Source of the DNA: an uncultured Alphaproteobacteria bacterium
GTDB lineage: Bacteria > Pseudomonadota > Alphaproteobacteria > Micropepsales > Micropepsaceae
Assembly (NCBI GenBank): GCA_902826695.1
Contig: CADEFU010000001.1
Span: 297,764 to 361,763 of the forward strand
Reading direction: 5' to 3'
DNA length: 64,000 nucleotides
Program-made: the position numbers and the translations under genes
Shown here: one piece after another, positions 29,098 through 64,000 of the stretch
Layout: every line of letters begins with the position of its first letter
Position numbering within the stretch: the first letter of the stretch is position 1
Notes under the pieces: generated by a model
Told to the model about the DNA's origin: nothing
The model's database searches: none
The model's input: the letters and a program-made list of their open reading frames with translations, nothing else

Positions 29098-29258
29098 GGG
29101 GACCCCTTCCGGTTCGGGTGGCTATGGCTTTGAAGCAGCACGTCCGACATCGCAGGCGCAAAAAACGCCTGCCAGAGGGGCCCGGCCCGTGCATTCGACC
29201 GGAGTTAGAGCGGGGCCGTCAGGTTTCAAGGGGGTGGGGGGTGCCCAAATCCACGTGT

Positions 29259-48921: not shown

Positions 48922-49185
48922 TTACCGGTCGCCCGGGATTTCGTTGCGGCCCGGCGAGCATGAGCCGTAACCGGCGCGCCAACCTGCGCGGTAGGCATCG
49001 CTTTGATCCCACAAGGCTTGGTCACGGTCGGCCTTGGACGCCGGTGTGCCGGGTGTGCGGGCGGTTCCGGTAGAGCAGCCGTCTGAGAAGCCTGCGTCGT
49101 ACAGCGGGTCTTGGTCGTACTGGCTGGTGCCACAGGCGGCGAGGGGCAAGCTAAAGGCTAGAGCCAAGATCATGGTCGATCGCAT
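48922..49185 (-). CDS. small lipoprotein with paired AG-motif
   Basis: An 87-residue lipoprotein: signal peptide with lipobox LPLAAC (Cys18). The mature part has two related half-motifs, DAGFSDGCSTG and RAGWRAGYGSC, around SDAY, the GxxDGC pattern typical of small outer-membrane or periplasmic lipoproteins. The spaced cysteines suggest a disulfide. Function unknown. The start is ATG at 49185. Confidence 0.65.
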   Translation of the reverse strand: MRSTMILALAFSLPLAACGTSQYDQDPLYDAGFSDGCSTGTARTPGTPASKADRDQALWDQSDAYRAGWRAGYGSCSPGRNEIPGDR

Positions 49186-49289
49186 CGAAAAATCCTCAAA
49201 GACGCCGCGTGCGTTAACAGGCGCTTAACCGGGTGCGGCGTGGTCCGTCAAGCTGTCGGTGTGGGGCGCGGGCGGTGACCATTCAAAAT

Positions 49290-49336
49290 CGACGCAAATG
49301 CAGCTTGCTGGCTTAAACGCGGTGCAATTTGCGTCG
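49290..49336. promoter_or_regulatory. perfect 10-bp inverted repeat upstream of parA
   Basis: CGACGCAAAT at 49290-49299 is inverted as ATTTGCGTCG at 49327-49336, with a 27-base spacer. The right arm ends 38 bases before the parA start codon. It is a likely operator for autoregulation by ParA or its RHH-like partner, or a partition-site element. Confidence 0.6.
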
Positions 49337-49374
49337 GCTAAGTTCGCGCCTAAGGGACTTGAGAGAGGTTGGCT

Positions 49375-50100
49375 ATGTCAATGCGCGTGATTGTATTTGC
49401 TTCGCAGAAGGGCGGATCGGGGAAGACCACGCTGGCGGGGCATATCGGCGTACAGGCGGAGCTCGCGGGGGCAGGGCCGGTTGCATTGATCGATACCGAT
49501 CCGCAGGGGAGCCTTGCGAAGTGGTGGAATTGCCGGGAGGCTGCGACGCCGGCCTTCATCCATTCGGTTTTCACGAATCTGGTGCACGACCTCGATGAGG
49601 CGCGGGCGCAGGGGTTCAAACTTGTCGTCATCGACACGCCGCCTGCGGTCACGAAAGCAATTTCGGAAGTGATTGCCTTTGCCGATCTCGTCGTATTGCC
49701 GACGCGACCCAGCCCGCACGACTTGCGCGCGGTGGGGCCGACGATCGATATCTGCGAGGCGCGCAAGAAGCAGATGCTGTTCGTACTGAATGCGGCCGTC
49801 GCGCGGGCCAAGATTACAATGGAGGCAGCGGTTGCGCTGTCGCAGCATGGGACCGTCGCACCGGTGACCGTGCACAATCGTACCGACTTTGCGGCATCGA
49901 TGATCGACGGGCGCACGGTTATGGAGATCGAGCCCGAGGGGACGTCGGCTCAGGAAGTGCGCAATCTTTGGGATTACATCGAGACGCGATTGATGCGTAA
50001 GGATGTAAAGCCGGCCGAGATGAGTGAGGTCGTTCCGTTGCGCCGCAACGTCAATTCGCTCGGACGGGAAGCGCCGCTGTTCGGCCGCCGTGCGAACTAG
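49375..50100 (+). CDS. ParA/MinD-family ATPase
   Basis: A 241-residue Walker-type ATPase: deviant Walker A KGGSGKTT (residues 11-18), Walker A' in ALIDTDPQGSLAKWW, Walker B in KLVVIDTPPAV. There is no N-terminal DNA-binding extension, so it is the short ParA type that positions plasmids, chromosome arms, carboxysomes, chemoreceptors or other cargo. No ParB of the classic type follows; instead a protein with an RHH-like C-terminus does. The start is ATG at 49375 with GAGAGAGG upstream. It has a perfect inverted repeat upstream that may be its operator. Confidence 0.92.
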   Translation: MSMRVIVFASQKGGSGKTTLAGHIGVQAELAGAGPVALIDTDPQGSLAKWWNCREAATPAFIHSVFTNLVHDLDEARAQGFKLVVIDTPPAVTKAISEVIAFADLVVLPTRPSPHDLRAVGPTIDICEARKKQMLFVLNAAVARAKITMEAAVALSQHGTVAPVTVHNRTDFAASMIDGRTVMEIEPEGTSAQEVRNLWDYIETRLMRKDVKPAEMSEVVPLRRNVNSLGREAPLFGRRAN

Positions 50101-50117
50101 GCTGGAGGCGATTACAA

Positions 50118-50624
50118 ATGACAAAGTATGCACCGCTTACAGCCGGCATTTTGGCGCGCAAAGGTGAGGCTGAGCCGACCGCAACGCCGTTCGCCGATCA
50201 ACTGCTCACGCGCGTGGGTGCGCCATCGCCGGACCTGCGCGGACTGACCGCAATGGCCGGTCACGTGCACGTCGAACCTGGGTATCAGAAGCAGCAGGGA
50301 TTGCGTCCACCGTCGGTGAAAGCGCTGGATCCGATGTTCGCGTTCGGCCGCCGGCCGGCGCCGCCGCTTGAGCCTGTCGAGGAGGAAGAGGCGGCGGAGA
50401 GTCACTGCGTCGCTTGCCCAGGACCGTCTCCGGAAGAGGTGGCGAAGACTTACCACGTTAACTTGCGGCTGAAGCGGATGCGGTTTGTGAAGCTGAAGCT
50501 TTCGGCTGCGCTGCTCAGGCGGCCCGTGCAAGACATCGTGGCGGATGCGCTCGACGATTGGTTCGAAAAGTTGCCCGCGGACGTGCTTGGCGATTGCGCA
50601 TGTTTGAAGGCGCGCGGCGAGTAG
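50118..50624 (+). CDS. probable ParA partner with C-terminal ribbon-helix-helix-like segment
   Basis: A 168-residue protein starting 17 bases after parA. The first 110 residues are Pro/Glu-rich and probably disordered (acidic stretch EPVEEEEAAESHCVACPG). The C-terminal region (YHVNLRLKRMRFVKLKLSAA, then LLRRPVQDIVADALDDWFEK) reads as a beta strand with two helices, like the RHH DNA-binding fold of ParG/CopG. The pair parA plus RHH protein resembles type Ib partition modules, but the protein is longer. DNA or cargo binding is inferred. Confidence 0.7.
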   Translation: MTKYAPLTAGILARKGEAEPTATPFADQLLTRVGAPSPDLRGLTAMAGHVHVEPGYQKQQGLRPPSVKALDPMFAFGRRPAPPLEPVEEEEAAESHCVACPGPSPEEVAKTYHVNLRLKRMRFVKLKLSAALLRRPVQDIVADALDDWFEKLPADVLGDCACLKARGE

Positions 50625-63541: not shown

Positions 63542-64000
63542 TCAGCGCCGTTTCGCTGCGGTGGGCGATTTCAGGCCGCTTGCGACGAGGCGGCTCCAAA
63601 TTTCTTCGGCATCTTCGGCGTAGCTGAAGAGGCGCAGATCGTCGGGCGAGATCATTTCCTCGTCGACCAGCGTTTGGAAGTTGATCAGGCTCGTCCAATA
63701 AGCGCGATCGAATAGGACGACAGGGACGCCGTCTACCTTGCCGGTTTGGCGGAGCGTGAGCATCTCGAACAACTCGTCGAGTGTGCCGAAGCCGCCGGGG
63801 AAGACGACGAGGCCGTTTGCGCGCATTGCCAGGTGCATTTTGCGCATCGCGAAATAGTGGAACTGGAACGTCAGCTCGGGCGTCGAGTAGCGGTTCGGCT
63901 CTTGCTCTTGCGGCAGGCGGATGTTGAAACCGATCGACGGCGCGCCGGCGTCGGCTGCGCCCCGATTCGCGGCTTCCATCGTGCCGGGACCACCACCGGT
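63542..64000 (-). CDS. LOG-family protein (cytokinin riboside 5'-monophosphate phosphoribohydrolase-like), partial
   Basis: The C-terminal 152 residues of a LOG/TIGR00730-type protein; the 5' end lies beyond the window. The signature motifs are visible: the TGGGPGTMEAANRGA segment at the window edge (Rossmann-like PGGxGTxxE type) and VVFPGGFGTLDELFEMLTLR. LOG enzymes release the base from nucleoside monophosphates; many bacterial members are promiscuous or stress related. It is convergent with the small coupled gene, 9 bases apart. Confidence 0.92.
   Translation of the reverse strand, partial: TGGGPGTMEAANRGAADAGAPSIGFNIRLPQEQEPNRYSTPELTFQFHYFAMRKMHLAMRANGLVVFPGGFGTLDELFEMLTLRQTGKVDGVPVVLFDRAYWTSLINFQTLVDEEMISPDDLRLFSYAEDAEEIWSRLVASGLKSPTAAKRR

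Follow-up and report, generated by a model that had tools for sequence, protein, structure and literature searches.

A probable chromosomal ParF/ParG-type positioning pair of Alphaproteobacteria, with a c-di-GMP-I riboswitch before parA in relatives

We analysed a short ParA gene and the gene immediately downstream from it in a 64,000 nt-long stretch of alphaproteobacterial DNA, hereafter called the window. We consider it probable that the two genes are a domesticated, chromosomal and vertically kept partition pair of the ParF/ParG type, which in one large clade was ancestrally under c-di-GMP control. Small plasmids employ two-gene ParA/RHH pairs of this type to distribute themselves to both daughter cells. 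The initial annotation, made from the sequence, had proposed a segregation function, and a short ParA with a conserved RHH partner is indeed likely to work as a positioning system. The repeated presence of a c-di-GMP riboswitch before the ParA/RHH pair would provide a concrete route by which c-di-GMP could act on segregation or on the organisation of the cell, and its occurrence in many relatives (the window's genome lacks it) suggests that cell positioning and lifestyle signalling are connected. In addition, the pair illustrates how a plasmid partition module may become domesticated. The features considered, all on the forward strand, are the following.

49290..49299 (+), left arm of the inverted repeat, CGACGCAAAT
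49313..49342 (+), promoter-like core TTAAAC-18-GCTAAG, from the aligned upstream regions of relatives, by eye
49327..49336 (+), right arm of the inverted repeat, ATTTGCGTCG, inside the spacer of the promoter-like core
49361..49368 (+), Shine-Dalgarno-like GAGAGAGG ahead of parA, at the place taken in relatives by the 3′ edge of the c-di-GMP-I aptamer
49375..50100 (+), parA, ORF of a short deviant Walker ATPase of the ParA/ParF kind, whose C-terminal extension ends in FGRR
50118..50624 (+), partner gene, ORF of a ParG-like protein with an N-terminal motif, a low-complexity CxxC middle and an RHH end
50133..50177 (+), N-terminal motif PLTAGILARKGEAEP, candidate ParA-docking or ATPase-activating peptide, from conserved columns in the aligned partners
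50445..50570 (+), RHH domain (residues 110-151), from the AlphaFold2 model and fold comparison

The parA ORF starts at ATG 49375 or at the alternative TTG 49369 and stops at 50100, giving a product of 241-243 residues that has QKGGSGKTT as its deviant Walker A motif and, as the initial annotation had described, no N-terminal DNA-binding part. The Pfam models AAA_31, VirC1, MipZ and CbiA, of the ParA/MinD kind, matched the protein above cut-off, and the NCBIfam partition model NF041546 scored 165.4 bits, below its curated cut-off of 180. The best of 17 PDB sequences was ParF of TP228 (4dzz, E 3.7e-17 over 1-194), with another ParA entry, 5u1g, next to it on top (E 4e-17); MipZ, Soj and McdA were far weaker matches than ParF. 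An FGRR-like C-terminal motif was present in 46 of the 52 ParAs from the collected pairs, and 13 of the 52 partners carried FGRR, FGKR or FAKR, similar to the ParA tail.

The partner, of 168 residues, starts 17 bases past the end of parA, as previously noted. It had been described as having an acidic front and an RHH-like end: the second part held, while the very N-terminus proved to be basic, with a conserved motif (PLTAGILARKGEA), and the acidic run (EEEE) is found further in, at the middle of the protein. The window partner matched no Pfam or NCBIfam family, and the partners of some relatives matched RHH families weakly, one of them above cut-off (RHH_1 in L159). When a profile of 40 partners was used, ParG (1p94) was first among 15 PDB sequences, with E 2.5e-4; 14 of these 15 are RHH proteins. 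The AlphaFold2 model had pLDDT values of 91-97 in blocks covering residues 111-150, with helices at 120-133 and 137-151, and low confidence in the front of the protein, the N-terminus being coil. Foldseek of this model against the PDB returned no match at E 0.001 or better, the best being the antitoxin TacA1 (E 0.78). VIA-align over the 88 chains of Foldseek ranked RHH proteins highest, all Z values being modest (CopASO, Z 5.5 and rmsd 1.8 over 47 residues; ParG, Z 4.4 and rmsd 9.1 over 69 residues). From the sequence profile and the predicted model together, the end of the partner is an RHH fold, and the check by structure prediction that had been proposed for it came out in its favour. An RHH domain is not universal in the partners, none being found in that of L149. 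As a side observation, cysteines arranged as CxxC/CxC (50406-50417 and 50595-50603 in the window) are common to the window's genus and partly found beyond it; a metal site is possible.

Across the class, the N-terminus of the partner follows the motif SLTxGLLARKGxAxP, also present in plasmid partners, and its near-constant form is A-S-L-T-A-G-L-L-A-R-K-G-E-A-x-P. In 40 aligned partners the G column was invariant and L, R, K, A and P were near-invariant. Counted over 52 partners, G was found in 52, K in 50, R in 49, the A two places later in 50 and P in 44, in rows that were picked by the motif pattern and are not independent, hence counts that lean towards the motif. In ParG, an arginine-finger-like motif in the flexible N-terminal tail stimulates ParF, according to PMC7308502, and because of this we read the R-K-G motif, by analogy with the ParG tail, as a candidate ParA-activating peptide. 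The motif could also serve as a handle to find the partners and the cargo of 'orphan' ParAs across the Alphaproteobacteria.

Among known systems, by sequence the pair is most like ParF/ParG of TP228 (type Ib): the short ParA is nearest to ParF, a ParF-like ATPase likewise without an N-terminal DNA-binding part, an RHH partner (by fold and sequence) lies just downstream, and the gene order is ATPase-partner in both. ParG is in addition a small RHH protein with a flexible N-terminal tail and conserved basic residues, as described in PMC7308502. The window pair differs from TP228 in being chromosomal and vertically kept, in the C-terminal FGRR extension of ParA, in the absence of a parH-like array by exact k-mers and in the riboswitch of its relatives; the partner is longer than ParG, with an N-terminal motif of its own and Cys motifs. 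Precisely, no exact 5-7-mer was enriched in the 400 bases upstream of the window pair, and no consistent exact 5-7-mer array was found in the same interval of the other 24 loci, a search that degenerate boxes would escape. The lowest shuffle counts among the 25 loci were those of L150 and L135, for G+C-rich 5-mers (for L150 also 6- and 7-mers).

The pair is not a canonical ParABS (Soj/Spo0J) system, in which the partner is of the ParB family (HTH, CTPase), as here the partner is an RHH protein. Because the same genome has other ParA-like genes, including a canonical parA-parB beside gidA/gidB-like ORFs on contig C11 (by eye), we considered the window pair as an additional system. A further ParA-like gene of this genome (G000:C23:7498-8091) scored 121 bits to NF041546 and stands beside a replication-initiator-like ORF; C23 is perhaps a plasmid contig. 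One more known system, with an RHH fold, is not known to have a ParA partner. That system (PMC7156744) was brought in by an RHH fold among the partner-model matches and by its theme of c-di-GMP and the chromosome. PpfA/TlpT and other 'orphan' ParAs are, like the window ParA, extra chromosomal ParAs besides the canonical ParAB, but PMC9178275 describes them without parB, in chemotaxis or other operons, whereas the window ParA has an RHH partner gene next to it. The word 'orphan', used in the initial annotation, does not suit a ParA with a conserved cognate partner.

A search with the window's partner alone as query matched 20 of the 61 near genomes (the window's included) at E 0.001 or better, and the pair was present in 9 of the 10 other members of the window's genus. 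A 19-row partner profile found matches in 46 of 385 genomes across the class Alphaproteobacteria. Both genes were paired in 52 of the 61 loci examined, with a gap from -4 to 103; these loci were chosen with the motif pattern and include genome repeats (e.g. L127 and L036), hence the pairing and motif counts describe the family and not a sample. The nine loci yielding no pair were L139, L148, L152, L154, L158, L160, L165, L040 and L022. L148 does have both genes, its ParA having been missed by the pattern, the pair of L165 is visible by eye, and in L040 the contig piece stops shortly after parA.

The closest relatives outside chromosomes belong to small plasmids. The best plasmid ParA matches were 61-64% identical (4 records of the 4578 with a match), and the highest plasmid identities to the window ParA were those of the pairs of PLAsvaD, Deefgea, Methylomonas and Comamonas. 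In PLAsvaD and Deefgea, the two that were read, ParA is 62.5-63.8% identical and the partner, of 80-87 residues, has SLTSGLVAKKGQA and an RHH-like end in common with the window partner, its start being T-A-S-L-T-S-G-L-V-A-K-K-G-Q-A; this small plasmid-type partner was matched in 7 plasmid records. The small-plasmid pairs differ from the window pair in having ParAs without the FGRR tail and shorter partners (both in PLAsvaD and Deefgea), and in adjoining replication genes. By sequence, the chromosomal pair and the small-plasmid pairs look like one family, in which we infer the direction to have been from plasmid to chromosome.

Plasmid pairs beside replication genes as the nearest non-chromosomal relatives would also fit a remnant of an integrated plasmid or mobile element that retained its partition genes. 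We consider such a remnant very improbable: the pair is found in nearly the whole genus, as counted above, and in many families, several relatives have it on contigs of 2.7-4.4 Mb, and an antiporter-like gene is a neighbour common to 13 loci. In its own genome the pair sits on contig C1 among chromosomal-type neighbours rather than on a plasmid. The genes flanking it are ordinary; a Yip1-domain gene on the opposite strand comes next downstream, with a DUF1365 gene after it. The window has no tRNA and its base composition is even throughout. The initial annotation had suggested an integrated element as a possible context, and this was rejected because the same pair is widespread through the Alphaproteobacteria, in agreement with the flat composition and the lack of a tRNA in the window.

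We then return to the domesticated partition pair and to its control in relatives. In an alignment of the upstream regions of ten relatives, a sequence like the c-di-GMP-I aptamer was recognised in eight. The Rfam families considered for this riboswitch were RF01051 and RF03167. Rfam confirmed the aptamer, with 14 matches above the gathering score in 18 loci upstream of parA, two of which (L012 and L038) come from one genome. Among the 61 near genomes RF01051 was found in 10, with one match each, and in all 8 of the riboswitch-bearing genomes of the window's family it stands immediately before parA. Among the 385 genomes of the class it was found in 32, immediately before parA in 14 (G039, G126, G151, G172, G174, G197, G236, G254, G264, G272, G327, G342, G347 and G370). 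With both sets together, the aptamer is immediately before parA in at least 22 of 40 riboswitch-bearing genomes, these counts being lower bounds because only some loci were read in genomes with several matches; by coordinates, no partner match of the 385-genome search adjoins an unread riboswitch. The partner was present in 18 of the 32 riboswitch genomes versus 28 of the 353 others (Fisher p 1.3e-10, uncorrected for kinship). In 5 of these 18 (G042, G076, G102, G314 and G172) the partner does not share a stretch with the riboswitch, in G172 because the contig ends.

c-di-GMP riboswitches are mostly known from motility, adhesion and matrix genes. The other riboswitch loci that we read, by eye, were ahead of a PilZ-like gene, a response regulator and transglutaminase-like genes. 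A link between a c-di-GMP riboswitch and ParA was not found in the open-licence literature, searched by title and the start of the abstract.

The distance from the aptamer end to the chosen start codon was 10-16 bases in 14 of the 22 genomes and 83-136 bases in the other 8. In the first group the ribosome-binding site comes right after the aptamer, which suggests a control of translation by the riboswitch. RNA folding of eight leaders did not consistently separate ON from OFF, the mean unpaired probability of the ribosome-binding site being 0.42-0.68. In the genomes with long leaders, the small ORFs that follow the aptamer and precede parA were mostly not conserved; those of L040 and L042 share a short stretch, SLFLPS/TLFLPS. 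In L069, the pair is preceded by two c-di-GMP-I aptamers of the same orientation (G197:C3:63023-63110 and 63559-63647), some 450 bases from each other.

The window leader differs from those of the relatives, whose aptamers score above cut-off right before parA: it gave no RF01051 match even at E up to 10, hence no sign of riboswitch control, and RF01051 was absent elsewhere in the window's genome. The same genome has seven GGDEF matches, so its organism presumably makes c-di-GMP. In a ParA tree of 40 rows, all 17 riboswitch rows fell within one 26-row clade (support 96/98), and the presence of the riboswitch required 6 changes versus 13.1 in shuffles, none of 500 being as low; the rows without it include the window, its nearest relative L128 and L033. 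Judged by this distribution, the switch looks ancient in the 26-row clade and lost in the lineage of the window.

What remains in the window leader is a promoter-like core, recognisable in several relatives, in which we infer TTAAAC and GCTAAG to be the -35 and -10 elements. A perfect 10-bp inverted repeat with a spacer of 27 bases, ending 38 bases ahead of ATG 49375, flanks and overlaps this core; its coordinates agree with those first noted. Of 200 mononucleotide shuffles of the upstream 260 bases, none produced a 10/10 repeat with a spacer of 20-34 and 20 produced a 9/10 repeat. The whole window contains 16 overlapping 10-bp repeats (spacer up to 40) versus 2-9 in ten shuffles, therefore repeats of this kind are not unusual in the window. 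Between the arms at the homologous position, 9/10 bases pair in L039, with the same spacing, and only 2-6/10 in the other nine of the ten relatives, including the nearest, L030 (3/10). The exact repeat occurs a single time in its own genome, the proposed scan for further copies having returned none; a search with 24 bases of its right half, allowing up to 3 mismatches, likewise gave one occurrence. A repeat unique in the genome therefore does not make a dispersed centromere.

On these alignments the inverted repeat is not a family feature, and a conserved operator at this place was rejected, the arms being poorly paired in nine of ten relatives. The role as operator is thereby weakened under the refuting condition that the initial annotation had set, a lack of the repeat in related genomes; the repeat may still be a real operator of the window's own lineage or species. 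An RHH fold, and a near-perfect repeat around the promoter-like core in both the window and L039, would suit a partner that is mainly a transcription regulator, namely an autorepressor at the inverted repeat modulated by ParA, and ParG too represses its own operon (PMC7308502). We hold this to be improbable, as the repeat is not kept in nine of ten relatives and a ParA ATPase is unnecessary for autorepression.

For the partition pair that we prefer, the mechanism would be the following. ATP-bound ParA dimers would coat the nucleoid, and partner dimers would attach to a DNA site through the RHH domain. The N-terminal R-K-G motif of the partner would enter the ParA dimer and induce ATP hydrolysis, by which the bound cargo would be transported or kept at intervals along the nucleoid; probable too is that the partner represses its own promoter. 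How much of the pair is made would, in one large clade, be set by the c-di-GMP-I riboswitch, whose 3′ edge mostly abuts the parA ribosome-binding site, and positioning would be tied in this way to the motile/sessile or cell-cycle state. The lineage of the window would have lost the switch and kept a short leader with the promoter-like core. The most likely cargo would be a chromosomal DNA site, which is the least certain step. The points against this explanation are the lack of a parH-like array, the partners without RHH, the window leader without riboswitch, the NF041546 score below cut-off and the lack of a Foldseek match at E 0.001.

The nature of the cargo has to be weighed against the genes that accompany the pair in relatives. 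In sphingomonad-type loci, a gene for a TPR-SPOR protein stands directly after the partner. In L164, the gene after parA (L164:7017-8186, reverse strand) has the same N-terminal motif, with a SPOR domain (E 2.8e-10) replacing RHH and a membrane helix between the two (by eye). The third gene of other families is PAS_5-like, above cut-off in L141 and below it in L143; that of L135 had no PAS_5 match. N-termini resembling SL[TA]..I.VRK, which recall the partner motif, were found on the third genes of L135, L141, L143, L146 and L165. MopJ of Caulobacter is a PAS_5 protein and a polar cell-cycle and motility regulator, as stated in PMC4432633. DUF2336 and ROS/MUCR genes are recurrent near the pair in relatives.

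The SPOR- and PAS_5-linked variants hint that the adaptors may serve proteins or the envelope. Together with MopJ, the DUF2336 and ROS/MUCR neighbours and the c-di-GMP control, they would favour a positioner of protein or envelope cargo, in which the partner is one of several adaptors sharing a ParA-docking peptide and what is positioned is a protein complex of the pole or septum (chemoreceptors, a pilus, a regulator of division or the cell cycle), as in PpfA/TlpT or McdAB. We consider this rather unlikely for the window pair, since most partners keep the RHH DNA-binding domain, the third genes vary by family, and none of the SPOR, PAS_5, DUF2336 or ROS/MUCR neighbours adjoins the pair in the window, where the Yip1 gene of the other strand is next. 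A broader and still tentative proposal, to which we give slightly more credit, is a class-wide alphaproteobacterial positioning system in which a nucleoid-bound ParA works with exchangeable adaptors carrying the docking motif (RHH for DNA, PAS_5 for signalling, membrane-SPOR for the septum), in an amount set by the c-di-GMP riboswitch. If true, this combination of adaptors and riboswitch would be a direct link, at the RNA level, from c-di-GMP to subcellular positioning.

Other observations concern the surroundings of the pair. A small lipoprotein-like gene, at 48922-49185 on the reverse strand of the window, has relatives upstream of the pair in 10 loci and no Pfam match. The sequence TTAACAGGCGCTTAAC (49214-49229), 29-44 bases upstream of this divergent gene and upstream of parA too, has the form TTAA-N7-TTAAC and resembles the CtrA box. 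This CtrA-box-like sequence is also present in the nearest relative, L030, and, among the riboswitch-bearing relatives compared, only in L038. The only Rfam match in the window was a terC RNA (RF03067, 56.5 bits) at 29135-29193 on the reverse strand.
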